Shown here piece by piece: positions 4,138 to 19,005 of a stretch of 64,000 bases of DNA (position 1 is its first letter; every line of letters begins with the position of its first letter). Source of the stretch: Bacteroidota bacterium (GTDB taxonomy: Bacteria > Bacteroidota > Bacteroidia > 2-12-FULL-35-15); NCBI GenBank assembly GCA_947479085.1, contig CANJYB010000003.1, positions 1 through 64,000 on the forward strand, given 5' to 3'. Both the position numbers and the translations under genes were made by a program. Below the pieces are notes generated by a model, which saw nothing but the letters and a program-made list of their open reading frames with translations, did no database searches and was not told the DNA's origin.

Positions 4138-4162
4138 AAGATAAAAATGAAAAAAGAAAACT

Positions 4163-5793: not shown

Positions 5794-5819
5794 TTATAGG
5801 TTTTAGAAAACAAAAAAAA
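5794..5819 (-). promoter_or_regulatory. Element promoter-like signal (minus strand)
   Basis: Read on the minus strand: TTTTC, a T tract from 5819 to 5812, and ACCTATAA from 5801 to 5794. The offset of tract start to box start is 18 bp, the same as at the plus-strand sites. It serves the gene starting at 5744. Confidence 0.6.
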
Positions 5820-5902
5820 GAAAAGAAATTTTTCTTTCTGCATCCTTTAAAAAATAAACCTTTCTTAACAAAACACTTTTTTCCTTTCATCTCAAACAAT
5901 TC

Positions 5903-5928
5903 TTTTTTTTCTAAATGCCAACCTATAA
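5903..5928 (+). promoter_or_regulatory. Element promoter-like signal upstream of DUF932 gene
   Basis: TTC plus T8 (5903-5910), 10 nt, ACCTATAA (5921-5928). The ATG at 5956 is 27 nt further on. It is divergent from the signal at 5794-5819. Confidence 0.65.
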
Positions 5929-5955
5929 GACCATAAACAAATAAACAAAAAAGAT

Positions 5956-6906
5956 ATGGCACACAATTTAAGATTAGCAGATGGCAAAGCAGACTTTGCG
6001 ACTACTGCGCCAGCTTGGCACGGCTTAGGGACTGTGGTAAAAGAAGCAATGACAGCCAAAGAAGCTATTGAATTAGCAGGTTTGGGATATGAGGTACAAA
6101 AGGAAATTATGACTATTGAGGGAAAAAATGGTTTTAATATCGTTGTCCCTAATGCGTTTGCAACAAAACGTACCGACACAAATGAAATTTTGGGAACTGT
6201 TGGAAATCGTTACCAACTTGTACAAAACAAAGAAGCGTTTAATTTCTTTGATGCGATTATCGGTGAAGATATGGCAATGTATGAGACAGCGGGTGTACTT
6301 GGAATTGGTGAAAAGGTATTTATTACTGCAAAAATGCCTGACTTCATTCGTATCACAGGAACTGATGATTTAACAGAAATTTATGTTTATCTTACAAGTA
6401 CACACGATGGTTCAGGTTCAATAATAGCAGGTGTTACAAGCCAGCGAATTGTTTGCAGCAACACTTTGAATCTCGCCCTTAAAAACTCTATTAACAAGGT
6501 ATCAATTCGCCATACCAAAAGCGCAAAAGTAGCATTGGAAAGTGCCCACAAAGTTTTGGGAATCTCTCACCAATATACCACAGAATTAAACGAATGTTTG
6601 AATTACTTAGCTACAAAACCCGTAACAGATGCAAAAGTTAAAGAGTTGGTAAAAAATGTTTTCAAGAGTGAGTCAAAAGACAGTAGCAGAATTGAAAATA
6701 TACGCCTTGCCGTTTTAGATTCATACTATAACGGGATTGGGCAAGAAAAAATTATAGGGACAGCGTATGGAGTGTTGCAGGGATTCACTCACTTTCTTTC
6801 ACACAAAAAAAATTATAGAGATAGCAGTATTAAATTAGAAAGTCTAATGAATGGCGAGAGTAATAAAGTTGCCAACGAAATAGGGCAGATGCTAATCACC
6901 CTTTAA
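5956..6906 (+). CDS. DUF932 phage/plasmid-like protein (TIGR03299 type)
   Basis: A 316-aa protein matching my memory of the DUF932 family across its length: N-terminal PAWHGLG, the central GNRYQLVQN, then the STHDGSG and SQRIVCSNTL blocks. DUF932 proteins are common on plasmids, phages and integrative elements, often next to single-strand DNA and transfer-leading-region genes. Their biochemical role is not established. The length is typical and the protein looks intact. It is the largest and best-conserved gene in the short-gene run. Identification is fairly sure, function is not. Confidence 0.85.
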   Translation: MAHNLRLADGKADFATTAPAWHGLGTVVKEAMTAKEAIELAGLGYEVQKEIMTIEGKNGFNIVVPNAFATKRTDTNEILGTVGNRYQLVQNKEAFNFFDAIIGEDMAMYETAGVLGIGEKVFITAKMPDFIRITGTDDLTEIYVYLTSTHDGSGSIIAGVTSQRIVCSNTLNLALKNSINKVSIRHTKSAKVALESAHKVLGISHQYTTELNECLNYLATKPVTDAKVKELVKNVFKSESKDSSRIENIRLAVLDSYYNGIGQEKIIGTAYGVLQGFTHFLSHKKNYRDSSIKLESLMNGESNKVANEIGQMLITL

Positions 6907-6944
6907 GATTAAAAGAAGGTAGAAAGTTAATTCTCTCTCCCTTC

Positions 6945-6970
6945 TTTTTCTCCAAAATCTTTACCTATAA
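6945..6970 (+). promoter_or_regulatory. Element promoter-like signal upstream of 6984
   Basis: TTC plus T5 at 6945, ACCTATAA at 6963-6970, offset 18 bp. The ATG is 13 nt past the box. Confidence 0.65.
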
Positions 6971-6983
6971 CAATAACGACAAT

Positions 6984-7295
6984 ATGAACTTTACACAAAT
7001 AAATTTCGAGCAGAACTCAGATAAAACCGTTGAATTTATAGCATTTGCAAAAGAATTTAAGAAGCAAATAATAAGAGAATTCAAAAAAATAGGGGCGCAA
7101 ATGAATACATTTAATGTTGGACACTTCTACCTTTCGGGTTTCTTTTACAAAGGCGAACAGTGCTATTATTTCAGTTGGCACAATGGAGACAGCAATTTAA
7201 TGTATCGGACTGCAAAAGACTTAAAAGATTTTACAGGCGGGTCAAATTGTTGGATAAAATTGGAGGATTCTTTTGAGCAAATGAGATTAAAATAA
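6984..7295 (+). CDS. Hypothetical protein
   Basis: A 103-aa protein with an N-terminal charged helix (FAKEFKKQIIREFKK) followed by an aromatic, beta-like part (GHFYLSGFFYKGEQCYYFSWHNGD). This layout resembles small beta-sandwich phage or plasmid proteins, but I do not recognise the family. It has its own element promoter-like signal, so it is probably monocistronic. Confidence 0.65.
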   Translation: MNFTQINFEQNSDKTVEFIAFAKEFKKQIIREFKKIGAQMNTFNVGHFYLSGFFYKGEQCYYFSWHNGDSNLMYRTAKDLKDFTGGSNCWIKLEDSFEQMRLK

Positions 7296-7333
7296 ATTCC
7301 TTTTTTTACTCCATAAAACTAAATTTAAGTTTC

Positions 7334-7359
7334 TTTTTTTTCGATTTGTTAACCTATAA
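7334..7359 (+). promoter_or_regulatory. Element promoter-like signal upstream of 7364; decides the start
   Basis: TTC plus T8 at 7334-7341, ACCTATAA at 7352-7359, offset 18 bp. The ATG at 7364 begins 5 nt after the box. A TTG at 7346 in the same frame would place the box inside the gene, so the ATG is preferred. Confidence 0.65.
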
Positions 7360-7363
7360 AAAC

Positions 7364-8131
7364 ATGAAAAATGCAAACAAAAAGGGTAAGCTAATTCTTG
7401 AAGTCAATAAGAAATACATTGATGGAAATACCACGAACTTTAAAATAGGAAAAACCACCATTATGATTACCCCACCAATTGATGAAGATTATTGGCAATT
7501 CAGAGTGAAAGTTGACAAAGAACAAGCGATTGTCGGATTTCCAAAGTTCAACACCATAGGCATTGCTTTTGCAAAGGAGGATGACTGGAACACCAATTTG
7601 CCATATAATTCTTCCACAGACGAAATATGGGAGCACATTAAGGTCAACAAGTACTTTGCTTCCATATCTGACGAAGATTGCATCAAAGCAATAAAAATGG
7701 TACAAAATGCAGCGAAGGAATATAAGAGAGCTGAAAAGGAGATGGAAGACATGCTTGTATTTAATAATGAGCCTTTCCTAAAAAGTGAAAGTAAGGGTAA
7801 TTTTATATCTAAGACAGAATTCAAAAATGCTTGTCAGATACTCAGAGCAAGGAAAACAACCGCATTCACCCGAACCTTTTTTGGGCAGACAGAAGATTTA
7901 GTTTTGCGTAAGTTCTGCCTTCTATTTGGCTATATCAAAGACCAAAGTGCATACCGATATAAATTCACAACCTACGAAACTACAACTGATAAAGCGATTG
8001 AAAGGTTTATGTATGTTCTCAGAGAACAAAACTTACATCTTGAATTTAATCAAAAAAATTACGAAACACTGCTTATTGGAACATTGGAAAATGGTCGGGA
8101 AAGGGGATTTAAAATTCCAATTTGTTTCTAA
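7364..8131 (+). CDS. Hypothetical protein, 255 aa
   Basis: One of the longer orphan genes here. The N-terminal half is beta-rich with basic patches. The middle (about 100-140) is a charged helix ending AEKEMEDMLVF. The C-terminal part has an RARKTTAFTRTFFGQ block. No signal peptide or known motif is seen. The start is the ATG at 7364, because an in-frame TTG 18 nt upstream would include the ACCTATAA box. Function unknown. Confidence 0.65.
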   Translation: MKNANKKGKLILEVNKKYIDGNTTNFKIGKTTIMITPPIDEDYWQFRVKVDKEQAIVGFPKFNTIGIAFAKEDDWNTNLPYNSSTDEIWEHIKVNKYFASISDEDCIKAIKMVQNAAKEYKRAEKEMEDMLVFNNEPFLKSESKGNFISKTEFKNACQILRARKTTAFTRTFFGQTEDLVLRKFCLLFGYIKDQSAYRYKFTTYETTTDKAIERFMYVLREQNLHLEFNQKNYETLLIGTLENGRERGFKIPICF

Positions 8132-8139
8132 CAAAATTC

Positions 8140-8165
8140 TTTTTTTTTAAATCTCTAACCTATAA
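8140..8165 (+). promoter_or_regulatory. Element promoter-like signal upstream of 8177
   Basis: TTC plus T9 at 8140-8148, ACCTATAA at 8158-8165, offset 18 bp. It begins right after the stop codon of the preceding gene. Confidence 0.65.
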
Positions 8166-8176
8166 AGAAAAAGCAA

Positions 8177-8410
8177 ATGCGGGTAATTAATGTTATAGAA
8201 AGTACAAAACAAAACCCTGTCATGTCAATTGAATCTTTTGGTGTTTATGAAGAGCAACTTTCTCAGAATATCGTTGATGAAGCAGAGAGACTATTTGAGA
8301 TGAAGGCAAAAGAGAATGGTGTAGCAGAAGAAGAACTGGAAAGTGCTCTTGACGATGGCTATTATGGGAATGGAGATTATACTCTTTCAATTGTCTGGAG
8401 TACCATTTAG
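8177..8410 (+). CDS. Small acidic hypothetical protein
   Basis: A 77-aa protein, strongly acidic in its second half (EEELESALDDGYYGNGDY). Small acidic proteins of this kind are common on phages and in plasmid leading regions, where some mimic DNA or block restriction. That comparison is inference from charge alone. It has its own element signal. Confidence 0.6.
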   Translation: MRVINVIESTKQNPVMSIESFGVYEEQLSQNIVDEAERLFEMKAKENGVAEEELESALDDGYYGNGDYTLSIVWSTI

Positions 8411-8418
8411 TTGAACTC

Positions 8419-8444
8419 TTTTTTTTACATACTCTTAGATATAA
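8419..8444 (+). promoter_or_regulatory. Element promoter-like signal upstream of 8461 (box AGATATAA)
   Basis: CTC plus T8 at 8419-8426 and AGATATAA at 8437-8444. The box differs at two positions from ACCTATAA but keeps the 18-bp offset exactly, which argues the geometry is selected. Confidence 0.55.
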
Positions 8445-8460
8445 AATTAAAAATATACAA

Positions 8461-8631
8461 ATGGATAACTCTACAGATATTATTGCAACAGCAGTTGAAA
8501 GTGATTCTAAAATTAGATTAACTCAAACACAAAAGGACAGGGCAGTTGATGAAGACTTGGTTCATTATGATGGTATTGAATGGAAGTTTTTTGATGAAGA
8601 CTTGGAAAAACTTGAAGCGTTAAAGAAATAG
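8461..8631 (+). CDS. 56-aa acidic protein
   Basis: ATG at 8461 to TAG at 8629-8631. The protein is very acidic (ends FFDEDLEKLEALKK) with no recognised motif. It is supported by its own promoter-like signal upstream, by the next signal starting 5 nt after its stop, and by fitting the gene-signal-gene rhythm of the region. It is too short to judge on its own. Confidence 0.55.
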   Translation: MDNSTDIIATAVESDSKIRLTQTQKDRAVDEDLVHYDGIEWKFFDEDLEKLEALKK

Positions 8632-8636
8632 CTTTC

Positions 8637-8662
8637 TTTTTTTTAAAATTCTTTACCTATAA
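8637..8662 (+). promoter_or_regulatory. Element promoter-like signal upstream of 8667
   Basis: TTC plus T8 at 8637-8644, ACCTATAA at 8655-8662, offset 18 bp. The ATG starts 5 nt after the box. Confidence 0.65.
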
Positions 8663-8666
8663 GAAT

Positions 8667-9050
8667 ATGAGAAAGACAACCACTCTTGCGCTTGAGTTTG
8701 CCACAAATATGCGAGGAAAATTAAGTCCTGAAATAAAAGCAAGGATACAGGCTTTAATTGATAATCCTTGTCCACAAACTTGGAATGAAGCATACTCTTT
8801 AATCATAAATCATCGTGTTACTGTGTCAACCCTTTGGCAAGCTGTATTGGTTATAAATCCAAACTTTTGCAGAAAGAAAGATTGTTATACTGAATGGAGC
8901 GAAATACCCACAAGAGAAGTAATAATAAATGCAATAAATAATGCGGTGTTTAACCACGGCTGTCACGAAAGAGTTTTGAGTAAAGATGCTTATCAGGCAT
9001 TGAAGTTGGAAAAATATAGTGCTCTTTTTTTTGTAAAGTTCAACCTATAA
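8667..9050 (+). CDS. Hypothetical protein whose stop codon lies in the next gene's promoter box
   Basis: A 127-aa mostly helical protein (residues 1-60 include TLALEFATNMRGKLSPEIKA and WNEAYSLIINHRV) with four cysteines and a CHER motif. Its last codons run through the T tract of the next signal, and its TAA stop is the final TAA of that ACCTATAA box (9043-9050). Either the C-terminus truly overlaps the promoter, or an earlier stop was lost. Function unknown. Confidence 0.6.
   Translation: MRKTTTLALEFATNMRGKLSPEIKARIQALIDNPCPQTWNEAYSLIINHRVTVSTLWQAVLVINPNFCRKKDCYTEWSEIPTREVIINAINNAVFNHGCHERVLSKDAYQALKLEKYSALFFVKFNL
9025..9050 (+). promoter_or_regulatory. Element promoter-like signal upstream of 9061, inside the 3' end of 8667
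   Basis: CTC plus T8 at 9025-9032, ACCTATAA at 9043-9050, offset 18 bp. The whole signal lies inside the preceding coding frame. Confidence 0.6.
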
Positions 9051-9060
9051 TACAAGACAA

Positions 9061-9267
9061 ATGAAAACAACACATAGCAAATCGGAACTTAAATGGCACT
9101 TGGAGAATAATGTTATTCCAAAACTTTCCTCAGCCGCAATCAGTGGGATTCTAACTACAGTGGATTTATTTAATGATGGAAAACTACGTCTTGATAATGA
9201 AATCAAAGAAGGTGCAGGCATTACAGTTAGTGAGATGTTTCAAGACGTAAAAATAGAAATAGAATAG
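9061..9267 (+). CDS. Small hypothetical protein
   Basis: A 68-aa protein, largely helical with an acidic C-terminus. It has no recognised domain. It follows an element signal by 10 nt, and its TAG abuts the next signal. It belongs to the monocistronic short-gene run. Confidence 0.55.
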   Translation: MKTTHSKSELKWHLENNVIPKLSSAAISGILTTVDLFNDGKLRLDNEIKEGAGITVSEMFQDVKIEIE

Positions 9268-9293
9268 TTTTTTCTCATCACTCCGATATATAG
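9268..9293 (+). promoter_or_regulatory. Degenerate element signal upstream of 9299 (box ATATATAG)
   Basis: T6 begins at 9268 directly after the preceding TAG. ATATATAG lies at 9286-9293 with the 18-bp offset kept. The ATAGAATATATG wording just before the ATG recurs before 10692. Confidence 0.45.
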
Positions 9294-9298
9294 AATAT

Positions 9299-9589
9299 AT
9301 GAAACCAATTGATTTTAATACACCTTTGGATACTCTTGAAAAAGGCTTTAGGAAAATAAAAACAATCCGAGGAATAAATACAAAGTATGAATTTCTTACA
9401 GGAGAAAATGCCCATGATGCTGCCGCATTGCTGTTGTCAGTTCATTACGGTTCAAATGAGGAAGTTGCCCATATTAAGGAATTAATTATTAAAAGCCATA
9501 AACGCCAATTTCCAAATCGTGCAGCTTTGAAACGAATTAAAATGGCAAGTGGATTTTACGCTGTTCATAGAATTATGCGTGGCAAATAG
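9299..9589 (+). CDS. Hypothetical basic protein
   Basis: A 96-aa basic protein, helical in its second half, with KSHKRQFPNRAALKRIK that could bind nucleic acid. I do not recognise a family. It is preceded by a degenerate signal and followed directly by a strong one. Confidence 0.55.
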   Translation: MKPIDFNTPLDTLEKGFRKIKTIRGINTKYEFLTGENAHDAAALLLSVHYGSNEEVAHIKELIIKSHKRQFPNRAALKRIKMASGFYAVHRIMRGK

Positions 9590-9595
9590 CTATTC

Positions 9596-9621
9596 TTTTT
9601 TTCTGATTTTGTTACCTATAA
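9596..9621 (+). promoter_or_regulatory. Element promoter-like signal upstream of 9626
   Basis: TTC plus T7 at 9596-9602, ACCTATAA at 9614-9621, offset 18 bp. The ATG starts 5 nt after the box, as at 7364 and 8667. Confidence 0.65.
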
Positions 9622-9625
9622 AGGC

Positions 9626-10039
9626 ATGATAGCAGAAATAAAAAACAAAGCAAAAAAGACAGATTTTAGGCTGCTGTCAATTGAAGAAACAAGGAACTGG
9701 AGAGAAGATATTGCAAAAGCATGTGGACGGATATATGGAGTTTACTTTTACAACAAAAATGAACATACCTACTGCTGTGAACTCGCTCCGTCCTATTCTC
9801 TTATTCCACTTTATAGTTATTCGGAAAATGAAATTAAAGATGGAATGGCTGAGGAACTAATTAATGGAGATGCACTTTGCTCTAATGTTATTTATGTTCA
9901 CGTTTCACAAGTTGACAAATTGAAAACACAACCCGCACCTGCCAGCCTAAATGGAATTTACTATGAAAACGGAGGGAAAAAATATCGTGAGATAATGGAG
10001 ACCGCAGAAGAATATCTCAAATGCAACCATCAAATTTAA
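9626..10039 (+). CDS. Hypothetical protein, first of a two-gene unit
   Basis: A 137-aa soluble protein with no recognised motif. It has cysteines in its central part (TYCCELAPSYSLIPLYSY). The next gene starts only 13 nt downstream without its own signal, so 9626 and 10052 are probably co-transcribed. This is one of two gene pairs in the element that share a signal. Confidence 0.6.
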   Translation: MIAEIKNKAKKTDFRLLSIEETRNWREDIAKACGRIYGVYFYNKNEHTYCCELAPSYSLIPLYSYSENEIKDGMAEELINGDALCSNVIYVHVSQVDKLKTQPAPASLNGIYYENGGKKYREIMETAEEYLKCNHQI

Positions 10040-10051
10040 AAAACAAACAAT

Positions 10052-10330
10052 ATGAAATCTAACACAAAATATCTCTTCATTAGCTTAACAATTAGAAATG
10101 GAGAATATGAATATACATCCATTTCTGTACACGAAATATCATCAAGAAAAAGTGTCAAAAAATTCGGACGAGATTATGCAAAGAATTTTTATGGTGGAAA
10201 ATCATTTAAGAATTCTCCCGAAGAAGATTGGTATTATTTTAACTGCGGAGAAGTTGCCGTTAAACTCTCAACAGTAGAGCAAATAAAGAAAGAAGAATAT
10301 GATGTCCTCAACAAATTTCAGTTTAGATAG
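10052..10330 (+). CDS. Hypothetical small protein
   Basis: A 92-aa protein with alternating beta-like segments and a basic centre (SSRKSVKKFGRDYAKNFYGGKSF). It lacks its own promoter-like signal and follows 9626 by 13 nt, so it is likely the second gene of that transcript. Its function is unknown. Confidence 0.6.
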   Translation: MKSNTKYLFISLTIRNGEYEYTSISVHEISSRKSVKKFGRDYAKNFYGGKSFKNSPEEDWYYFNCGEVAVKLSTVEQIKKEEYDVLNKFQFR

Positions 10331-10334
10331 TTTC

Positions 10335-10360
10335 TTTTTTTTAGAAAAAGTTACCTATAA
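10335..10360 (+). promoter_or_regulatory. Element promoter-like signal upstream of 10368; decides the start
   Basis: TTC plus T8 at 10335-10342, ACCTATAA at 10353-10360, offset 18 bp. A frame that opens at 10299 would place this signal inside the gene, so the ATG at 10368 is the likely start. Confidence 0.65.
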
Positions 10361-10367
10361 ATGTAAG

Positions 10368-10658
10368 ATGGATATAATAGAAAAAATAAAAGAAGTAGCT
10401 TTCATAGCAGCAATATTAGGAGACCATTTTGTTGAATCTCTTTATCCAATTATGCAGGAGAGAGGCACAGGATATATATCGACAGCAGAAGAAATAGCGA
10501 AATGGTCAATAGAGTTCTACAAGAAGCACAAGGATACTGACTGGGAAGAAGTACTTGAAAATGGAATAAAGCCATTGTCAGAAGAAATGAAGAGCGTAAT
10601 TTGTTACGATGATTGCATTGTAGATTTTGGATATTGGAAACTCAGTAAATTTAGGTAG
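10368..10658 (+). CDS. Hypothetical acidic protein
   Basis: A 96-aa protein starting MDIIEKIKEVAF. It is helical and acidic. The longer version from 10299 is rejected because it would translate the T tract as a run of Phe and overlap the previous gene. No family is recognised. Confidence 0.6.
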   Translation: MDIIEKIKEVAFIAAILGDHFVESLYPIMQERGTGYISTAEEIAKWSIEFYKKHKDTDWEEVLENGIKPLSEEMKSVICYDDCIVDFGYWKLSKFR

Positions 10659-10691
10659 TTCATTCTTTTAAAGAATGTGGGAATAGAATAT

Positions 10692-11183
10692 ATGAAAGAT
10701 GTTACTTTTAGAATCGTTTCGGAAAAAGTAAAGATATTTGACACTGGAGAATTATGCGTGATGCTGATTCTGTCAGAAGGAAAATATTTGGTTGAAGTAG
10801 TAAACAGGATAAGTAGTATTGGGCGAATACAAATAGCATCAAGGAAAGATGCGGAGTTTATGGTACGTACAATTGAGTGCTGCTTCCACCGTTATAGAAA
10901 TATAATTGATGCCGAAATAGCCTTTGGAAAAGCCTTTTCATTAAAAGACCTTGATAAAATTATATTTGTTATTTATTCAACCAACAGAATTATTACTCAA
11001 GATGATATTGTTTACCTTAGAAAGAACATTGAATTCAGGACCATAATAAAAAAACATCATCACTATTTGGAAAAACAAAAAGGAGCTGTTACCATCTATA
11101 TTCTTCCAGACTTTAGTAAAAAACCATTTGCCTATCTTGTCGGAACTGAATACCTCCGAGATTTAAAATTCCGATTTCTTTAA
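10692..11183 (+). CDS. Hypothetical protein, 163 aa
   Basis: The start ATG at 10692 (MKDVTFRIV) is preferred over a GTG at 10677 because ATAGAATATATG spans the ATG exactly as at 9299. The protein is basic, with a KKHHHYLEKQKGA block near residue 125 and no recognised fold. The upstream signal is the weakest in the run: TTC plus T4 at 10666, and only TAGAATAT at the expected place. Confidence 0.6.
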   Translation: MKDVTFRIVSEKVKIFDTGELCVMLILSEGKYLVEVVNRISSIGRIQIASRKDAEFMVRTIECCFHRYRNIIDAEIAFGKAFSLKDLDKIIFVIYSTNRIITQDDIVYLRKNIEFRTIIKKHHHYLEKQKGAVTIYILPDFSKKPFAYLVGTEYLRDLKFRFL

Positions 11184-11214
11184 CCCTAAAATGAAAAAGA
11201 AGGATTTGTTTTTC

Positions 11215-11239
11215 TTTTTTTGAAAATTCAGACCTATAA
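11215..11239 (+). promoter_or_regulatory. Element promoter-like signal upstream of 11249 (offset 17)
   Basis: TTC plus T7 at 11215-11221 and ACCTATAA at 11232-11239. This is the only clear site with a 17-bp rather than 18-bp offset. Confidence 0.6.
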
Positions 11240-11248
11240 ACTAAAAAA

Positions 11249-11392
11249 ATGTATGCCCAAAAAGACAAACTATCACTTAGTATAATAATGATAGTTGGCA
11301 AAAAACAAGAATGTAGCAAAGACAGGGGTTTTGGAGTAAATGAGAAAATCAAAAAAATACCAACTGTCATTTACAAGCAAAATAAACTATAA
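11249..11392 (+). CDS. 47-aa protein overlapping an inverted repeat
   Basis: ATG at 11249 to TAA at 11390-11392, 9 nt after an ACCTATAA box. The peptide is basic (GKKQECSKDRGFG, then NEKIKKIP). The DNA also carries an 8-bp inverted repeat at 11268-11296, so the stretch may serve as a recombinase site as well as, or instead of, a gene. The signal upstream is the main support for translation. Confidence 0.4.
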   Translation: MYAQKDKLSLSIIMIVGKKQECSKDRGFGVNEKIKKIPTVIYKQNKL

Positions 11393-11401
11393 ATGATAGT
11401 T
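11268..11401. repeat. TGATAGTT repeats beside the resolvase gene
   Basis: AACTATCA at 11268-11275 and TGATAGTT at 11289-11296 form a perfect inverted repeat with a 13-bp spacer. A further TGATAGTT lies at 11394-11401. A near copy (AACTATCT) at 12427-12434 lies on the other side of the resolvase gene. The arrangement could be a resolution (res) site, but this is unproven. Confidence 0.4.
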
Positions 11402-11462
11402 GTTTAGGATTTCAGAAAAGTCACTCACATAAATTTATTGAAGTAATTATTAAAAAGAAAAG

Positions 11463-11490
11463 CTGCAAAATAAAATTTGCAGTTTTTTTT
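11463..11490 (+). terminator. Rho-independent terminator
   Basis: CTGCAAA (11463-11469), 6-nt loop, TTTGCAG (11476-11482), then T8. This is the clearest intrinsic terminator in the element. It closes the short-gene run before the resolvase. Confidence 0.85.
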
Positions 11491-11517
11491 ATTTCTTAAA
11501 AATACTAATTCCCTTTC

Positions 11518-11543
11518 TTTTTTTTCGTTTCTTAAACCTATAC
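11518..11543 (+). promoter_or_regulatory. Element promoter-like signal upstream of the resolvase (box ACCTATAC)
   Basis: TTC plus T8 at 11518-11525 and ACCTATAC at 11536-11543, offset 18 bp. It sits between the terminator and an inverted-repeat operator. Confidence 0.6.
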
Positions 11544-11547
11544 AATT

Positions 11548-11570
11548 ATAATAACGTTCGTAGTTATTAT
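11548..11570. promoter_or_regulatory. Perfect 8-bp inverted repeat, likely operator of the resolvase gene
   Basis: ATAATAAC (11548-11555), a 7-bp spacer, GTTATTAT (11563-11570). It begins 5 bp after the promoter-like box, where a bound protein would block initiation, so resolvase autoregulation is plausible. None of the other element signals has such a repeat. Confidence 0.5.
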
Positions 11571-11586
11571 TGGTAAAACTAAAGAA

Positions 11587-12330
11587 ATGAAAAAATACAT
11601 CACTTATTTTCGGGTATCAACTGTAAAACAAAATATTTCTCACCTTGGACTCGAAGCACAAAAATCTTCGGTGGAGCAATATGTCAAAAATGTCAATGGA
11701 GAAATTATTGATTCTTTCACCGAAGTTGAAACAGCTGGTTCAAAAGATAAAATTTCAGTTGACAAACAAGTAAGCATTGAAAGTTTGTTATCCAAACGTC
11801 CACTATTATTGAATGCTTTAAAATTAGCAGAAGCAAATGGAGCAATAATAGTAGTGAAGGAAAGCTCACGATTGACAAGGTATTCACTACTTATGGAATT
11901 CCTTCTCAAGAGTGGTATAACCTTTGAATTCGCTGATGCTCCAAGCGATACAGCTTTCATTGTAAAACTTAAAACAAGTTTAGCCGAAGAAGAATTATTG
12001 AGAATTTCTGAAAGAACTAAGGCAGCGTTAAAAGCCCTTAAAGACAGGGGATTCAAGCGTGACACAAGTAAACATGGATTAACAGAAGAAAATATAAAAA
12101 AAGGAAAAGACAGAAGAAAGGAGTTGGCAAGCTTAAACGATAACAATAGAAAGGCTTCTGGGTATATTATACTGCTTCGCAATTCAGGTAGTACTCTTCA
12201 ACAAATTGCAGATAAGCTGAATTCAGAAGGTTTTAGAAGTAGTCGGGGAAAACAATTTAGACCAAGCAATGTTTTGATGTTGTTAAATAGAGCACTTCAA
12301 ACAAATGAATTAATTCAAAAAAATACTTAA
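11587..12330 (+). CDS. Small serine recombinase (resolvase/invertase family)
   Basis: A 247-aa serine recombinase. The N-terminus has YFRVSTVKQ with the catalytic Ser at about residue 11, followed by the KESSRLTRYS arginine motif near residue 100. The C-terminal 60 residues (GSTLQQIADKLNSEGFRSSRGKQFRPSNVLMLLNRA) form a helix-turn-helix like that of resolvases. It lacks the long C-terminus of integrases, so it probably resolves multimers or inverts DNA rather than integrating the element. It lies behind its own terminator, promoter-like signal and operator-like repeat, and TGATAGTT-type repeats flank it. Confidence 0.9.
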   Translation: MKKYITYFRVSTVKQNISHLGLEAQKSSVEQYVKNVNGEIIDSFTEVETAGSKDKISVDKQVSIESLLSKRPLLLNALKLAEANGAIIVVKESSRLTRYSLLMEFLLKSGITFEFADAPSDTAFIVKLKTSLAEEELLRISERTKAALKALKDRGFKRDTSKHGLTEENIKKGKDRRKELASLNDNNRKASGYIILLRNSGSTLQQIADKLNSEGFRSSRGKQFRPSNVLMLLNRALQTNELIQKNT

Positions 12331-12386
12331 TCCGAAGACACCAGTATTATCAAATGATGCAAGGGAATACTCTTACATTGCACTTC

Positions 12387-12412
12387 TTTATTTTGCATTC
12401 ATTGACCTATAA
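12387..12412 (+). promoter_or_regulatory. Element promoter-like signal upstream of DUF2779 nuclease
   Basis: TTC, an interrupted T tract from 12387, and ACCTATAA at 12405-12412, offset 18 bp. The leader to the ATG at 12452 is 39 nt and contains the AACTATCT repeat. Confidence 0.55.
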
Positions 12413-12451
12413 TATATAGTAAAACTAACTATCTTTGAAAAATAAAATCTG

Positions 12452-13807
12452 ATGAATTACGCTAAACACATTTTTTCCAAAAGCACTTTTTTGTATTTTT
12501 TGCAATGCCCCAAACGCCTCTTTTTGCACAAATTCAAAGGAGAATTGCGTAACCCTGAAGATGAAGCCCAACAATCAATTTTTTCTTCAGGAACAAATGT
12601 TGGTTTGTTGGCTCAAGGACTTTTTCCAGGAGGTATTAATGCTGAACCACCTGATGCGTTTTCATATCATCTTTCTGTTGCGAAAACTCAACAATTAATT
12701 AAAGAAGGCGCAGAAGTCATATACGAGGCCTGTTTTAACTATGATGGTGTTCTTTGTGCAATTGATATTCTTGTAAAAGAAAAAAATTTATGGTATGCTT
12801 TTGAAGTCAAAGGAACAACTACTGTGAAACAACCGCATAAAATTGATGCAAGTTTGCAGTATTTTGTATTGACAAACTCTGGAATTCAACTTGAAGATAT
12901 TTTTATTGTTCACCTGAATAATCAATATGTTCGGAGGGGAGAAATAAATGTGCAGGAATTATTCACGAAGCAATCAATTCACGAGCAAGTTAAGGAGCAA
13001 CAAGAATTTATTGAAACAAAAATTGTCGAACTAAAGAAAGTTGTTGCATACAAAATAGAACCAATTGTTGAAGTTGGTAAGCATTGCGAAAAACCTTACC
13101 CTTGCGACTTTACGGGCTTTTGCTGGAAGAATGTTAATGAAGAGGAAACAAAATCAGAACGTGAAGAATATATAAACAAAGAATATTTGAACGAATTCTT
13201 TAGCGAACTACAATACCCATTATTTTATTTTGATTTAGAGACCGTAAATCCAGCGATTCCAGAATTTAATTTTTCACGACCTTATCAACAAATCCCATTT
13301 CAATATTCTTTGCATATTCAGAGAAATAAAGATTCGGAACTTGAACAGAAAGAATTTTTAGGAGATGGGTTAACAGACCCAAGAGAGGTATTAGTAAAGG
13401 AATTGCTTGCATCACTTGGAAATGAAGGAAGCATTATTGTGTGGAACCAAACATTTGAAATATCAAGATTGAAAGAACTTGCAAGAGATTTTCCAATTTA
13501 CGAAAAACAAATTTACGATGTGCTTGAACGTGTTGTTGATATAATGATTGTATTTAGAAAAAAAATGTTTTATCATCCAGATTTTAATGAATCCTACAGC
13601 ATAAAAAAAGTATTGCCAGTGCTTGTTCCAGAATTAAGTTATAGTGATTTGTCAATACAGGATGGGGGTAGCGCAAGTTTAATTTATTCAGAATTGAAGA
13701 ATCAAACTGAAGAAATACAAATTGAACAAAGAAAGAACCTCTTGGAATATTGCAAACTTGATACTTTGGCGATGGTGAAGATATTGGAAAAAATAAATTT
13801 TACTTAG
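12452..13807 (+). CDS. DUF2779 nuclease: Cas4-like PD-(D/E)XK domain fused to DEDD exonuclease-like domain
   Basis: A 451-aa two-domain protein. The N-terminal part starts with the Cas4-like FLQCPKRLFLHK block, then an AIDILV...FEVKG core (PD-(D/E)XK) and a cysteine cluster (C...YPCDFTGFC) that could hold an Fe-S centre. The C-terminal part carries FYFDLETV near residue 250, VWNQTFEISRL near 335 and YCKLDTLAM near 435, the three motifs of an RNase H-like DEDD exonuclease. This matches the DUF2779 family. All expected acidic residues are visible. It is probably a DNA nuclease used in element processing, defence or anti-defence; the precise role is unknown. It carries the element signal. Confidence 0.85.
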   Translation: MNYAKHIFSKSTFLYFLQCPKRLFLHKFKGELRNPEDEAQQSIFSSGTNVGLLAQGLFPGGINAEPPDAFSYHLSVAKTQQLIKEGAEVIYEACFNYDGVLCAIDILVKEKNLWYAFEVKGTTTVKQPHKIDASLQYFVLTNSGIQLEDIFIVHLNNQYVRRGEINVQELFTKQSIHEQVKEQQEFIETKIVELKKVVAYKIEPIVEVGKHCEKPYPCDFTGFCWKNVNEEETKSEREEYINKEYLNEFFSELQYPLFYFDLETVNPAIPEFNFSRPYQQIPFQYSLHIQRNKDSELEQKEFLGDGLTDPREVLVKELLASLGNEGSIIVWNQTFEISRLKELARDFPIYEKQIYDVLERVVDIMIVFRKKMFYHPDFNESYSIKKVLPVLVPELSYSDLSIQDGGSASLIYSELKNQTEEIQIEQRKNLLEYCKLDTLAMVKILEKINFT

Positions 13808-13820
13808 TTGGCATTTACAA

Positions 13821-14020
13821 TCACGAAATGTATAGTAAATTGACTAAATCAGATTTGTTCCATTTTGTTGAAATTTTCTCATCCTGGCTGTCAAGTTTTC
13901 CATTTTTTAGGACAAATATTTTTTTAACGCCTTCCAGGGCAGCATCATTGTCATGGCTGTTAGGAGATGGTTGAAACAATATGAAAAAACTAAGATTGTT
14001 GATACTTAAACAAAAGAAAA
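13821..14020 (-). pseudogene. Coding-like remnant downstream of mmpA
   Basis: In the gap between 13807 and 14036 a minus-strand frame ends at the TGA at 13821-13823. It reads like real protein (EGVKKIFVLKNGKL, then STKWNKSDLVNLLYIS) but has no start codon, and upstream it dissolves into low-complexity codons. It does not resemble the Fic-type mobile mystery protein B that usually follows MmpA. It is probably the 3' end of a decayed gene. Confidence 0.3.
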
Positions 14021-14035
14021 ATGATTCATTATAAT

Positions 14036-14542
14036 CTATTTTTTATCCCAAAACGACCTCGGAAAATCTAGCATTAAAACCCTTGCATGTTGGACTGCGG
14101 AATTAATAACTTGATAGTGCCCCCTCTTTTTTATTTTTAATTCATCTGGCAGGTCATTATATAAAATCTCTGCTTTTTCATTATAATGTGGCAATATCTT
14201 ACCATAAAAACTATCATTTGTATGAACAAATCCGTAAACAAGTTTAAGCCCCAAAGCCTTTCCAAACCTTCGAAGTGAATTCAAAGAAATCGTACCCGCC
14301 CTTTCGCCTTCTTCAAATTCTTTGATTGCCTGAGATGTGACAGGGGATGCCTCTTTTGTTTTTACATCTTTATATCTTTCGCCAAGCTGCCTCCTGGACA
14401 TATTAATTTTTGTTCTAATTTCTTTTATCCAGCCAGTATCTGGAACTTTTCCATCAATCGGCTTAAATGACACCAATAATTTGTCAAGTTCCTTTAGCTT
14501 GATTAGAATGTCTTGTTTTGTTGTTTCTGAATCGTTTTCCAT
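14036..14542 (-). CDS. Mobile mystery protein A (XRE-type helix-turn-helix)
   Basis: A 168-aa protein matching the mobile mystery protein A family: GWIKEIRTKINMSRRQLGER near residue 45, then EGERAGTISLNSLRRFGKALGLKLVYGFV near residue 85. These proteins carry an XRE helix-turn-helix and usually precede a Fic-family partner (protein B) like a toxin-antitoxin pair. Here no partner follows, only a short coding-like remnant. It is expressed from a chromosomal-type promoter (TAACTTTG at 14575-14568), unlike its neighbours, and runs against them, which suggests it is a cargo acquisition. There is a C-terminal extension of about 50 residues. Confidence 0.85.
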   Translation of the reverse strand: MENDSETTKQDILIKLKELDKLLVSFKPIDGKVPDTGWIKEIRTKINMSRRQLGERYKDVKTKEASPVTSQAIKEFEEGERAGTISLNSLRRFGKALGLKLVYGFVHTNDSFYGKILPHYNEKAEILYNDLPDELKIKKRGHYQVINSAVQHARVLMLDFPRSFWDKK

Positions 14543-14567
14543 TGTATTTGAATTTCTGTTTCAAATG

Positions 14568-14575
14568 CAAAGTTA
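14568..14575 (-). promoter_or_regulatory. Bacteroidota -7 promoter box for mmpA
   Basis: Read on the minus strand, TAACTTTG matches TAnnTTTG exactly and lies 25 nt upstream of the mmpA ATG. It shows that chromosomal-type promoters also exist in the element, on cargo rather than core genes. Confidence 0.6.
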
Positions 14576-14700
14576 AATAATTTAAAGTTATAACATTTAT
14601 TTTTAAAATATAATTAAAGGCTATAGCTTTAAGTAAAATGCCATAATTTACTAAGTTGAATTTCAAGTTATTGAAAACAAGTAATATATGAATGCAATTC

Positions 14701-14726
14701 TTTTTTTGTTTTTTGGCAAACTATAA
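14701..14726 (+). promoter_or_regulatory. Element promoter-like signal upstream of the sigma-4-like gene
   Basis: TTC plus T7 at 14701-14707 and AACTATAA at 14719-14726, offset 18 bp. The 63-nt leader to the ATG at 14790 contains the GCTGGTAAAGC repeat element. Confidence 0.55.
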
Positions 14727-14734
14727 ATGTATAA

Positions 14735-14770
14735 GCTGGTAAAGCCAACCATCAGAATAAAGGGGGCAGA
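14735..14770 (+). repeat. GCTGGTAAAGC...GGGGGCA element, copy A
   Basis: This 36-nt leader element is about 80% identical to 16712-16748. Both have CTGGT, AAAGC and an ACC-containing arm ending in CAG that can close a short hairpin, then AGAAT and a G5CA end. Conservation of unpaired blocks as well as arms suggests an RNA element or protein-binding site rather than a simple hairpin. Confidence 0.45.
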
Positions 14771-14789
14771 CAAATAAAAATTAAAAGAA

Positions 14790-15212
14790 ATGAAAAATTT
14801 AAAAGCGAAAAACGAAAACGAAAGGAGTATTAATATGGAAAAGGTATTCCAAGAATGCCTATTGGAATATTTGAGAACTCTTTCTCCGTTTAAAAAAGAA
14901 GTAACAGTTGAATTAATTAAAAATGAAAAGTCAGAAAACTTGGCAATAAGGTATTCTGAAAGAAACAAAATGAGTTTAAGAGTTGCACGTGCTCATATTA
15001 GTAGGGCAGAACAAGGATTAAAGAAATTCGTAAGTAAAGTATTTAATGTTTTTAAAAGTGAAGAAGTCTATTGGTCAACGTTTAGAGATGGTGTACTACT
15101 GATACATTATAAAATCAAAAACGAAATCGGATATACCGTAGGTAGTGAAGATATAAATATAGAAGCACTCAAAACATTCTTGGAAAGCCAAGTTGAAATA
15201 AAAATTAATTAA
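14790..15212 (+). CDS. Hypothetical protein with possible sigma-region-4-like helix-turn-helix
   Basis: A 140-aa protein. Residues about 50-80 (ENLAIRYSERNKMSLRVARAHI, then SRAEQGLKKF) resemble the recognition helices of sigma factor region 4 or a related helix-turn-helix. The N- and C-terminal parts are not recognised and no region 2 is seen, so it is not a complete sigma factor. It is the first gene of a unit with DUF5131, which starts 35 nt downstream without its own signal. It is a candidate reader of the element promoter signal, but only by inference. Confidence 0.55.
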   Translation: MKNLKAKNENERSINMEKVFQECLLEYLRTLSPFKKEVTVELIKNEKSENLAIRYSERNKMSLRVARAHISRAEQGLKKFVSKVFNVFKSEEVYWSTFRDGVLLIHYKIKNEIGYTVGSEDINIEALKTFLESQVEIKIN

Positions 15213-15247
15213 TCAAAATCAATAATTAAAATTTTAAAAAAATAAAA

Positions 15248-16270
15248 ATGGAACAAACAAAAATACAATGGACAGATGACACTTGGAATCCTTTTCACGG
15301 ATGTCACAAAGTATCAGAAGGGTGCAAATATTGCTACATGTATCGTGATAAGGAACGATATGGCAAAGACCCAAATGTTGTGATGAAATCCAAAACTGGA
15401 TTCTATGCCCCTTTAAAATGGAAGGAACCCAGATTAATATTCACTTGCTCATGGAGCGATTGGTTTATAGAAGAAGCTGACCAATGGCGAGATGAGTTGT
15501 GGGAAATAATCAAGTCAACCCCACATCACACTTATCAGATTCTTACTAAAAGACCAGAGCGTATTAAACAATGCCTACCAGCTGATTGGGGTCAAGGTTA
15601 CGATAATGTATGGCTTGGAGTTAGTGTGGAGAATAACAAGAATCTGGATAGATGCATGATTTTGGGCGAAATACCAGCAAAGGTGAAATTCATTAGTGCA
15701 GAACCTTTGTTAGGTGAGTTGCCTGGATTAAACGAAATTTTTTCAAAGTTCAAATTCGACTGGTGCATAATTGGGGGAGAAAGTGGAAACAGTACAGGTA
15801 AATATTTGTATCGTGAATGCAAGTTGGAGTGGATAGTTGATATAATAAAAACTTGTAAAGAAAAAAATGTAAAAGTATTTGTGAAGCAAACAGGAACCTT
15901 TCTAAAAAAGCAATTGAACTTAAAGGATTCTCATGGTGGTAAAATCGAAGAGTGGCCAGAAGAATTGAAAATTCGGGAATTCCCTGATAAAAAAACATCA
16001 AGTACCTTGTCCACTGTGGTTTCTAATGACGAGCCAAAAGTTAAATCGAAATCATTATCGAAAGAGCTTTCTGGAGCAACATTAAATACTGGTTCTAAAG
16101 CAAACCGAACTGTTACATCAGAAAAATCATCTTTAGATTTGGCTAAAGAAATAAAAAAAATTGAAACTGAAGAAACTTTTCACAAAGTAACTTATGTTTA
16201 TGAGTATGTTCCAACAATCAATAAAAACCCAATGAATACAAGCGTTTCAATAATAATAAACAACAAATGA
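15248..16270 (+). CDS. DUF5131 / phage Gp37-Gp68 family protein, radical-SAM-like
   Basis: A 340-aa protein. Residues 1-250 match the Gp37/Gp68 (DUF5131) family: IQWTDDTWNPFHGC at the start, then the cysteine cluster CHKVSEGCKYCYM, ILTKRPERI near 100, NVWLGVSVEN near 120 and IIGGESG near 175. The cysteines resemble a radical-SAM iron-sulfur motif. A Ser/Lys-rich tail of about 90 residues follows, probably flexible. The usual neighbour, the three-Cys-motif partner TcmP, is not adjacent. The family is frequent on phages and plasmids; the reaction is not known to me. It is co-transcribed with 14790. Confidence 0.85.
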   Translation: MEQTKIQWTDDTWNPFHGCHKVSEGCKYCYMYRDKERYGKDPNVVMKSKTGFYAPLKWKEPRLIFTCSWSDWFIEEADQWRDELWEIIKSTPHHTYQILTKRPERIKQCLPADWGQGYDNVWLGVSVENNKNLDRCMILGEIPAKVKFISAEPLLGELPGLNEIFSKFKFDWCIIGGESGNSTGKYLYRECKLEWIVDIIKTCKEKNVKVFVKQTGTFLKKQLNLKDSHGGKIEEWPEELKIREFPDKKTSSTLSTVVSNDEPKVKSKSLSKELSGATLNTGSKANRTVTSEKSSLDLAKEIKKIETEETFHKVTYVYEYVPTINKNPMNTSVSIIINNK

Positions 16271-16359
16271 AAAGGAGAAAAATGATTTTGTTTCAGCTTA
16301 AAGAAATTTATCGAAAAAAATCAATAAATCTTTGATTTTGATGCAACTTTTTCAAATGG

Positions 16360-16750
16360 ATTTCGTATAATAAGCGTGTAAGGGGAAAATCGAGAAAAGT
16401 ACTCCCAACCTCTTATACGATGAAAAGAATGAAAAGGTTGCATAAAAACTTAAAAATATGTAACCTCTGTTTCAGAGCCTAACTTATGTAAGCTATAAGT
16501 TTAGGTTTTAGCTTAATGAAATAGTTTCTTTTCTTATCCCCTGCTTTTCAAGTGGGTGGCGAATTCACCACAAAAATAAAGGCTTTTGAAGCCTTGATGG
16601 ACGAAGTGTGTCTGGATTATTCAGCCACAGTCTTCCGAAGTTCAAAAATTCCTGGGAGCAGGAATGGGAATTTTATTGTCCTGTTCCTAACTGAGGAAGG
16701 GCAAAATGAATGCTGGTAAAGCTCACCGCCAGAATGAAAGGGGGCAAAGT
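16360..16750 (+). ncRNA. Candidate structured noncoding RNA or origin region
   Basis: About 530 bp between 16270 and 16808 has no convincing gene but many hairpins. A long-range pair links TCGTATAA near 16365 with TTATACGA near 16422. AAGGCTT/AAGCCTT at 16579-16595 has a 3-nt loop. GGAGCAGGA/TCCTGTTCC (16655-16663 with 16679-16687) has one G-U pair. A GTGGGTG/CACCAC hairpin lies near 16551-16570. CCTAACTTAT pairs with ATAAGTTTAGG near 16487-16514. The stretch ends in copy B of the GCTGGTAAAGC element. I do not recognise a known RNA family. It could be an RNA, or a replication/attachment region with cruciforms. Confidence 0.45.
16712..16748 (+). repeat. GCTGGTAAAGC...GGGGGCA element, copy B
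   Basis: Second copy of the element at 14735-14770. Differences between copies fall mainly in the arm between AAAGC and CAG. It lies at the 3' end of the hairpin-rich stretch and before the tandem array. Confidence 0.45.
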
Positions 16751-16867
16751 TATTGTAAACAAAAAAAATAAAACAGTTATCAGCCATGTTGCAAGTAAAA
16801 CTAGAAAATGAGAATTAAGGAATTCAGAATGAAAGAAGAAAACATCCCAACATTAAATTTCTTGGAG

Positions 16868-17102
16868 GTTAGAAACCACACAACAAATAAAACCAACAAC
16901 TTAGTGTTATTATACAACTCAATGTGGGATATTAAGGTTAGAAACCACACAACAAATAAAACCAACAACTTAGTGTTATTATACAACTCAATGTGGGATT
17001 TTAAGGTTAGAAACCACACAACAAATAAAACCAACAGCTTAGTGTTATTAAACAACTCAATGTGGGATATTAAGGTTAGAAACCACACAACAAATAAAAC
17101 CA
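16868..17102. repeat. 69-bp tandem repeat, about 3.4 copies (iteron-like)
   Basis: Units start at 16868, 16937, 17006 and 17075, the last one partial. Copies are nearly identical throughout, with no variable spacers. Each unit contains CCACA and TGTGG as a distant inverted pair and a TTAGTGTTATTA core. The frame stays open on both strands because 69 is divisible by 3, so the 107-aa translations are probably not proteins. The location just upstream of a polymerase-like gene fits a replication origin or a regulator-binding array. Confidence 0.75.
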
Positions 17103-17333
17103 GGGGGCCTGAAACTAAAGCCAAATATTAAATAGATAGTTAAATAGTTAGTTAGTTAAATTGCTAGATAATAAAGTTACTTATGTGGCAGTTTAGTATA
17201 AAAACCAATAAAAAGATAATACCAGAGTTTTGGAATAAACAACCACTTATTTGTTGTTGAATCCAACGCCATTTCCAGTAAACGAAATAAAATAAATAAA
17301 CAAGAAAAAAAGTAAACAATAAAACAAATTAAA
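17103..17333. other. AT-rich gap between tandem array and polymerase-like gene
   Basis: The stretch begins with short ATAGTTA-type repeats near 17133-17160 and contains an AACAA/TTGTT pair near 17240-17260. No T-tract/ACCTATAA signal and no TAnnTTTG box is seen, so the promoter of the 17334 gene is not identified. It could include the melting region of an origin. Confidence 0.3.
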
Positions 17334-18971
17334 ATGAAAAATAGGTTTTTTAAAACAAATATAGATTCAGAAATACCAGTTTTGTTATTAGACAAACTGA
17401 ATGCAATTAAATTTAAAAGTAAGAAAAGCAGAGACCTAGCAATAAAATTAATTGCAGTTGTTTTGCACTCCATTGAAGACGAGGACGCAGACCCTGAAAG
17501 TTACTACAAGGAATTAAGGGTATCTTATATCCGAGAATACCTTACCTCATTTAATTTTTATGAAAAGTACTTTATAGAACACTTACAAGGACAGGAAGGT
17601 AAAGAAAATTTCGAGGAACGTATATTCCAGACAGATGGGATTTATTGTGTTGGATATTATGGGAAGCACTATCGGATAAACCCTAAATATATTGAGGGAC
17701 CAACAAAAGAAATTAATATTGAGTTTGAACTTGATTGTCTAAATGACCTTTTTCCAAATGTAGTCAGGCATTTCAATTATTCTACCTCTCTAATTAAAAT
17801 CAATAAAACGAAAGAAGAAATAACTGAAAAGATAGATGAGCAAATGGTATTGTCATCAGCAGTTACATTAATTGGAGTAAACGCTGTGTATTATAATGGT
17901 GGCAGCCAAAATTTTATCTCATTTACTTCTGATGAAACAAAATTACCTACGGAAATAAAACTCAGAAATATCTACCACAAAAGGATTAACAGTGAGGAAA
18001 TTGATAATTTATTAGATTTAAAAAACAAAGAGGCTGGAGAAAAAGTGTTTTTTCTTTTAAAAGAAAGAGATAAAAAAAACAAGTGCAAATATGATATAAT
18101 TCATCTAAATGAGTATCAGGTTAAAAAGAATTCTCAGTTTTTAAAAAGAGTGAATAAAAAAATAGAAAAAGCTATCTCAGGAAAATGGACACCCATAATA
18201 TCAAGTTCCAATGGACGTTTTAATCATTTGTTATCGAATTTAGATAATTTCTGTATTGATTTTTTCGCAATGGACAACGAACCTTTAGTATGCTATGACC
18301 TGAAGTGTTCACAGCCAACTATCCTTGCAAATCTTTTATTAGTAAACCCAAAATTAAGGGACAGCATAAGAAGTTCAAAATATATCAAACTTGTTGATTT
18401 TTTATCCGCAAATGAAGATGTCTTTTTTAAAGAAAAAGAGAATGATTGGTTTGAGAGATTTTTGAATAGTGACATTTATCAGATTGCCGCAGATGAAAAG
18501 GGGACGACAAGAGTAAAGGCAAAAAGTGATATGATGTATCTATTCTTCACTGAGCCTAATGCTCCATCAGTTTTAAAGAAAAGCTTGTTTCCGCATTTTC
18601 CAGAGTTTATTACTGGTTTACAGACGACAAAAGAGTCATTTAAGAAGAACCATAAGTCAAGTAAGAAATCATTACCACTTTTTTTACAGCTCGTAGAGGC
18701 ACATATATTTGTTGAAATAATTTATGAGGAATTGGCCAACGCAAGGATACCAGCAATTCCTAAACATGATTCAATACTTTGTCCAGCCTCAAGATTGCCA
18801 GAAGTGAAAGTAATAGTTCAGGGATGTTTTGAAAGAATTGGATTAAGAGGAAAAATGGAATTAGATGTGAAGAAAATGCAAGAGTATAATATTTTCCCAG
18901 AGTGGTATACTGGATACAATAGTAGTGAGGAATTGGATGAAGCTATCAATTACGATGATTTACCAGAATAA
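17334..18971 (+). CDS. Putative polymerase with family A / T7 RNA polymerase-like palm motifs
   Basis: A 545-aa protein. The C-terminal half shows three spaced motifs of the family A palm. Motif A is YDLKCSQPTIL with D322. Motif B has R393, K397, M401 and F405 in RVKAKSDMMYLFF, the R-x3-K-x3-M-x3-aromatic spacing of the T7 RNA polymerase O-helix equivalent. Motif C is KHDSILCPA with D479; T7 RNA polymerase has HDSFGTIPA. A GRFNHLLSNL block near residue 295 may match the upstream GR-Y motif. The steric-gate Glu of DNA polymerases (five after the motif A Asp) is Gln here. The N-terminal 270 residues are unrecognised. It could be a replication polymerase/primase or a single-subunit RNA polymerase. 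It lies between the tandem array and the integrase and lacks the element signal. Confidence 0.6.
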   Translation: MKNRFFKTNIDSEIPVLLLDKLNAIKFKSKKSRDLAIKLIAVVLHSIEDEDADPESYYKELRVSYIREYLTSFNFYEKYFIEHLQGQEGKENFEERIFQTDGIYCVGYYGKHYRINPKYIEGPTKEINIEFELDCLNDLFPNVVRHFNYSTSLIKINKTKEEITEKIDEQMVLSSAVTLIGVNAVYYNGGSQNFISFTSDETKLPTEIKLRNIYHKRINSEEIDNLLDLKNKEAGEKVFFLLKERDKKNKCKYDIIHLNEYQVKKNSQFLKRVNKKIEKAISGKWTPIISSSNGRFNHLLSNLDNFCIDFFAMDNEPLVCYDLKCSQPTILANLLLVNPKLRDSIRSSKYIKLVDFLSANEDVFFKEKENDWFERFLNSDIYQIAADEKGTTRVKAKSDMMYLFFTEPNAPSVLKKSLFPHFPEFITGLQTTKESFKKNHKSSKKSLPLFLQLVEAHIFVEIIYEELANARIPAIPKHDSILCPASRLPEVKVIVQGCFERIGLRGKMELDVKKMQEYNIFPEWYTGYNSSEELDEAINYDDLPE

Positions 18972-18979
18972 AGTGGTTC

Positions 18980-19005
18980 TTTTTTGTCTTTTCAGCAACC
19001 TATAA
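18980..19005 (+). promoter_or_regulatory. Element promoter-like signal upstream of the integrase
   Basis: TTC plus T6 at 18980-18985 and ACCTATAA at 18998-19005, offset 18 bp. The integrase ATG at 19020 is 14 nt past the box. Confidence 0.65.

Follow-up and report, generated by a model that had tools for sequence, protein, structure and literature searches.

A rigidly spaced, promoter-like signal ahead of the cargo genes of mobile elements in Bacteroidota

The first 64,000 nucleotides of contig CANJYB010000003.1 (assembly GCA_947479085.1) from a Bacteroidota bacterium of the lineage 2-12-FULL-35-15, here called the window, contain a small mobile element in which a two-part, promoter-like signal recurs between 5.8 and 19.0 kb. 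The element shares its layout with small elements of other genomes. The core genes (beginning at 4180, 4567 and 5224 in the window) are followed by a gene for a membrane-protein-like product on the opposite strand (5463), a gap between divergent genes that holds one or two signals, an array of small genes and, at or near the end of this array, a member of the 10692-11183 family. Moreover, a small serine recombinase is present in most small elements. The array genes are mostly without known family. The known ones encode DUF932 proteins (in the genome of the window, G000, and, among the other genomes compared, which include G015, G023 and G026, in G023 and G296) or ArdC (in G015). DUF932 is widespread among phages and uninformative on the signal.

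The consensus of the signal is TTCTTTTTTTT, followed by 10 bases and the box ACCTATAA, and the form used for searching was TTCTTTTT-N13-ACCTATAA. A sequence-only reading of the window had listed 16 sites, and every one of their coordinates matches when the sequence is read, including the site 11215/11232, which has indeed a spacing that is one base shorter. The distance between box and ATG is 4-63 nt in the window, in agreement with the range of 4 to more than 60 nt given earlier. It had also been proposed that most genes of the element carry the signal. This holds for the cargo array and for both recombinases but not for the genes at 4180, 4567, 5224, 10052, 10692, 14036, 15248 and 17334, which are without it. 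All features are listed in Table 1.

Table 1. Signals, second-class boxes and selected genes of the element (TSS, transcription start site, predicted throughout; ORF, open reading frame; HTH, helix-turn-helix)
Feature	Position	Strand	Match; matrix score	Predicted TSS	Gene or remark
Second-class box, degenerate (CTAATTAT), A at +5	4161-4168	+	aligned upstream regions of 7 orthologs		core gene 4180-4518
Second-class box CTATTTAT, A at +5	4544-4551	+			core gene 4567-4956
Second-class box CTATTTAT, A at +5	5205-5212	+			core gene 5224-5466
Core gene and candidate regulator; product predicted to be a MerR/Xis-like winged-helix DNA-binding protein	5224-5466	+			has orthologs in every small element examined in full
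Signal, divergent partner	5794-5822	-	exact; 27.8	5789	ORF 5463-5744 (-)
Signal	5900-5928	+	exact; 32.9	5933	DUF932 gene 5956-6906
Signal	6942-6970	+	exact; 20.3	6975	gene 6984-7295; tract and box, not spacer, kept in two G015 homologs
Signal	7331-7359	+	exact; 31.0	7364, A of ATG (leaderless)	gene 7364-8131
Signal	8137-8165	+	exact; 31.2	8170	gene 8177-8410
Weak signal (AGATATAA)	8416-8444	+	3 mismatches; 10.9		gene 8461-8631
Signal	8634-8662	+	exact; 30.4	8667, A of ATG (leaderless)	gene 8667-9050
Signal, CTC tract	9022-9050	+	1 mismatch; 22.4	9055	gene 9061-9267
Doubtful site (ATATATAG)	9265-9293	+	below 9		gene 9299-9589
Signal	9593-9621	+	exact; 26.9	9626, A of ATG (leaderless)	gene 9626-10039; kept at G015 99912
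Signal	10332-10360	+	exact; 28.2	10365	ATG 10368
Last array gene	10692-11183	+			the one family found both in the large element and in every small element examined in full
Signal, spacer one base short	11212-11239	+			gene 11249-11392; orthologous G015 site (counterpart of box 11232) normally spaced
Signal	11515-11543	+	24.4	11548	serine recombinase 11587-12330; same stretch in G015
Signal	12384-12412	+	27.4		DUF2779 gene 12452-13807
Mobile-mystery-protein-A-like HTH gene	14036-14542	-			match below curated cut-off
Signal (AACTATAA)	14698-14726	+	1 mismatch; 20.9	14731	gene 14790-15212
140-amino-acid protein, sigma region 4/HTH-like by eye	14790-15212	+			homologs in large element
Signal	18977-19005	+	exact; 22.1	19010	serine integrase 19020-20639
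Large serine integrase	19020-20639	+			element inserted in yifB/comM

Of the 16 boxes, 13 have the form ACCTATA[AC] (12 on the plus and one on the minus strand), and 12 of these have the common spacing. A matrix that had been trained on other elements only recovered 14 of the 16 listed sites with scores of at least 18. The site with its box at 8437 is weak, and the one at 9286, which the matrix missed, is doubtful because of its low score and because TAG stands in place of TTC or CTC in front of ATATATAG. When up to three mismatches were permitted, 20 matches were found in the window (4.2 expected; 11 in the highest of 100 shuffles), 16 of them within 5.8-19.0 kb. The spacing is remarkably constant. 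Although any spacer of 10 to 18 bases between TTCTTTTT and ACCTATA was permitted, it measures 13 bases in 167 of 173 sites from seven genomes. Comparison of seven orthologous pairs of upstream regions revealed identity at 56/56 positions of the tract and 54/56 of the box, as against 29/63 of the spacer, which corresponds to 98% for tract and box together and 46% for the spacer. Thus, selection acts on two parts that are held at a fixed distance. The T tract is not directly preceded by a G+C-containing stem, as would be the case in an intrinsic terminator of the upstream gene; the single nearby stem with a T run (11455-11490) ends ahead of its site.

The signal is not equally frequent on the host chromosome but confined to the element, by pattern as well as by matrix. 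In the whole host genome of 4,279,168 bases, TTCTTTTT-N13-ACCTATAA has nine exact matches, all of which fall within the element (5.8-19.0 kb), and the reversed control has none. The pattern TTCTTT-N15-ACCTATA is found 11 times genome-wide, again exclusively within the element, and its one-mismatch variants show no excess outside (22 versus 50 for the reversed control). With the matrix, for which 400 kb of the host genome served as background, 14 matches scoring at least 15 were obtained in the 16.6 kb of the element versus two in the 400 kb. The signal also differs from TAnnTTTG, as had been stated before. The latter motif is present in 74 of 250 chromosomal upstream regions (15 expected) and in just two of 19 upstream regions of the element.

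Signal clusters were detected in three further genomes of the same genus (G015, G023 and G026). A search of 84,980 species genomes for the divergent pair, which serves both strands, yielded two more records that led to two elements in the soil genome G297 and to a large element in G296. The latter genome has 104 exact signals (control, 0), nearly all of them on four contigs that together measure about 56 kb. Another signal-bearing element is present in G308, and a reduced one with a single divergent pair in G347. In G078, a remnant of the core keeps the second box described below, and array and signal are absent. In a sample of 395 genomes from across the phylum, the matches outside the window's own genome were single ones, as frequent as expected by chance, and the viral contigs that were searched contained single unclustered matches and no signal cluster. 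The contigs of the large element (C3, i.e. JAHFPP010000039, C10, C68 and C74; loci L089-L092) are binned with the genome of a Woesearchaeota archaeon, in which they are probably misplaced. They encode two ParB-like proteins, an extracytoplasmic function (ECF) sigma factor, DUF932 and GP88. The type of integrase differs between the small elements: it is a serine integrase in the window, a tyrosine integrase in G015 and G308 and, as judged by eye, a tyrosine integrase in G026. The array-end protein (10692-11183) has no match in plasmids.

The position of the ATG relative to the box suggests where transcription may begin. Of 141 sites, 35 (25%) have an ATG that follows the box at exactly 4 nt, and distances of 0-3 and 5-10 nt together account for five sites. 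Among the sites with the ATG at another position, 83% of 47 from small elements and 96% of 76 from the large element have an A as the fifth base behind the box; T occupies the fourth position in 75% of the large-element sites. This fifth base is also identical in all six orthologous comparisons. The simplest reading is that the RNA would start at the A five bases after the box. If so, the box would cover positions -12 to -5 and the TTC would begin at -33. The sigma-A box TAnnTTTG of Flavobacterium psychrophilum occupies the same -12 to -5 position according to mapped starts (PMC9723704), and the -33 promoter element of Bacteroides is near the predicted position of the TTC (PMC7366714). It would also follow that transcription begins separately for each cargo gene and that about 25% of the mRNAs are leaderless. 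This predicted share would be unusual for the phylum, as leaderless mRNAs make up 5.5% in F. psychrophilum (PMC9723704); in B. thetaiotaomicron, leaders of less than 10 nt occur in about 3.7% (PMC7366714).

The earlier proposal that the signal acts in transcription rather than in translation is thus strengthened, because the A at +5 is nearly invariant whatever the position of the ATG and because the ATG peaks sharply at 4 nt. Box and leader could instead act together on ribosome binding, since Bacteroidota use Kozak-like leaders in place of Shine-Dalgarno sequences (PMC6847099) and the leaders found here are A-rich. However, the A keeps a constant distance from the box whereas the ATG may follow after anything between 4 and 63 nt, and the rigid 13-bp spacing between tract and box has no known translational role, which makes a translation signal very improbable. 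We give equally little credence to a recombination or cassette-exchange site of the small serine recombinase beside the array. The variable gene content of the arrays and the resolvase beside most of them would fit such a site, but the signals also precede the integrase and occur as divergent pairs, orthologous copies retain their own diverged spacers, and neither the A at +5 nor the leaderless peak would be explained.

The explanation that we favour, with a probability of roughly 0.8, takes the signal for a private promoter of this family of mobile elements from uncultured Bacteroidota, one that the host chromosome does not use, as the distribution and geometry of the signal suggest. Alternatively, a repressor of the element might bind over or near each start, the signal being a dispersed operator or stoperator rather than the promoter itself. 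Asymmetric, dispersed sites bound by a repressor are known as mycobacteriophage stoperators (PMC9283540), and the gene for the predicted winged-helix protein adjoins the divergent pair. However, neither a fixed distance to the A nor an ATG peak at exactly 4 nt is required of an operator, the signal is built like -33/-7 promoters, and nearly all of these short gaps are devoid of the host-type motif. We therefore consider a repressor site quite improbable. It is also unlikely that the signal is an unusual host sigma-A promoter in need of no special factor. The predicted position does equal that of the sigma-A box, but the box has almost nothing in common with TAnnTTTG and is not used by the chromosome.

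If the signal is a promoter of the mobile elements, the host RNA polymerase may read it with a specificity factor beyond sigma-A alone. Candidates would be an ECF-type sigma factor as in the large relative, a host sigma factor, or sigma-A together with an activator of the element such as the predicted winged-helix protein 5224-5466. Most speculatively, the array with DUF932, ArdC (in the relative) and many small proteins might be switched on jointly at cell entry or upon induction, as in establishment regulons. The ECF-type sigma gene of the large element (L090:5779-6498; Sigma70_r2 and r4) has its own copy of the signal upstream. One may go further and suppose that a dedicated factor of mobile elements reads a promoter class common to the small integrative and the large elements, that the small ones without a sigma factor respond to the factor of the large one, as satellites do to a helper, and that most mRNAs have short leaders or none; we regard this extension as tentative and rather doubtful. 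Several observations weigh against the favoured reading of a private promoter: the ECF sigma factor was found in the large element only, signal-bearing host genomes have no closer relatives of it than signal-free genomes do, which speaks against it as the common reader, and no known transcription-factor family is common to all elements. Moreover, no close copy of the ECF sigma gene was found in the genomes with small elements, and no sigma or RNA polymerase gene was identified in the small integrated elements themselves.

Other candidate factors encoded in the window were also considered. The AlphaFold2 model of the winged-helix protein has a mean pLDDT of 75 and gave weak Foldseek matches to RacA, Tn916 Xis and BldC. 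The protein encoded by 14790-15212 was rejected as a sigma factor, as there was no family match and the model was unusable; its relatives (L092:12330-12629 and 12694-12963) bring the known members to three, without a family. The 545-amino-acid product of 17334-18971 contains the motifs YDLKCSQP and PKHDS, which by eye recall the polymerase palm, and has a weak relative in G016. It was dropped as a dedicated RNA polymerase because no family or structure match was obtained and its sole relatives are weak. The genomes G006 and G016, which were reached by weak matches to this protein, were rejected as carriers since they have no signal cluster.

A second class of box is associated with the core genes. 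The genes 4180, 4567 and 5224 and nearly all of their orthologs lack ACCTATAA, and the G026 homolog of 4180 has both boxes. Ahead of the members of these core-gene families, CTATTTAT is exact in 12 of 18 cases and near in 16, with an A at +5 in 14. The conservation of CTATTTAT is partly due to common descent of each gene, yet three different genes have it. The form CTATTTA[TC] is present in 2 of 287 chromosomal upstream regions, and as a bare word CTATTTAT shows no genome-wide enrichment. A host-type TAnnTTTG box precedes the HTH gene 14036-14542 on the minus strand. The region upstream of the DUF2779 gene (12384-12450) contains a host-type TAnnTTTG box, TATCTTTG, in addition to the signal of the element.

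At 19020-21468 in the window, the large serine integrase element interrupts yifB/comM; the C-terminal half of this gene is located on another contig (G000:C10:39669-40406). Adjoining this other half is a bacteriophage exclusion (BREX) set consisting of brxL, pglZ, pglX, brxC, brxB and brxA (G000:C10:25003-39045; L119). Since the window starts at a contig end, each of the two contigs probably holds a portion of a single composite element that exceeds 20 kb, and since the BREX set adjoins the yifB half, this element is probably a composite defence island. At the contig edge, 446-2974 encodes a helicase matching models of the defence-associated MkoA and of the IGHMBP2 type. A tandem array of 3.4 copies of a 69-bp unit, which are 97% alike, lies at 16866-17102 inside an open frame on both strands. 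Similar stretches (GCTGGTAAAGCCAACCATCAGAATAAAGGGGGCA and GCTGGTAAAGCTCACCGCCAGAATGAAAGGGGGCA) without a match in Rfam are situated in non-coding gaps, at 14732-14770 and 16718-16755, and are possibly a small RNA or a regulatory site.

The signal provides exact predictions of start sites for well over a hundred genes of mobile elements that have not been described before, and it is diagnostic for finding further elements of this kind. Confirmation of the promoter would show that elements of Bacteroidota have a transcription programme of their own, unused by the hosts, and the factor responsible for reading it could then be sought.

A literature search yielded no description of this promoter, and the papers listed for the box as a string were all unrelated, although a description elsewhere is possible. 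The GG at -24 and GC at -12 of sigma-54 promoters are not conserved in the aligned sites. The CGT in the -10 region that characterises the ECF motif SM6 of F. psychrophilum (PMC9723704) is likewise absent, but other ECF groups may differ. Promoters of the Frpo type, which act on single-stranded DNA, are inverted repeats folding into a duplex; by eye, the two parts of the signal are not inverted copies of each other. Like mycobacteriophage stoperators (PMC9283540), the signal is a short asymmetric repeat spread along an element; unlike them, it consists of two rigidly spaced parts and is followed at a fixed distance by the A at which transcription is predicted to begin. Phage promoters that depend on the phage's own sigma factor or RNA polymerase are similar in that many near-identical promoters are limited to one element. 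However, their sequence differs, and no gene for such a sigma factor or polymerase was identified in the small integrated elements. Clade II plasmids of the pLS20 family such as p576 (PMC8708921) resemble the elements in that the same promoter is repeated before separate anti-defence or establishment units including ArdC. Here, too, it precedes separate anti-defence units, namely the DUF932 genes in G000, G023 and G296 and ArdC in G015, and most array genes have no assigned function. However, the p576-type plasmids are Bacillus plasmids with operons and a Reg regulator whose operators lie beside the promoter, whereas the signal precedes single genes in elements of Bacteroidota. The signal is not classed as a pLS20-type regulon, as the likeness consists of promoter repetition and anti-defence genes, without a search for Reg or operators. 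A counterpart in position is the sigma-A promoter of Bacteroidota (-33 TTTG and -7 TAnnTTTG), to which both parts of the signal would correspond if the A at +5 is the start. In place of TTTG and TAnnTTTG, however, every element has the T tract and ACCTATAA, a combination that is absent from the chromosome.

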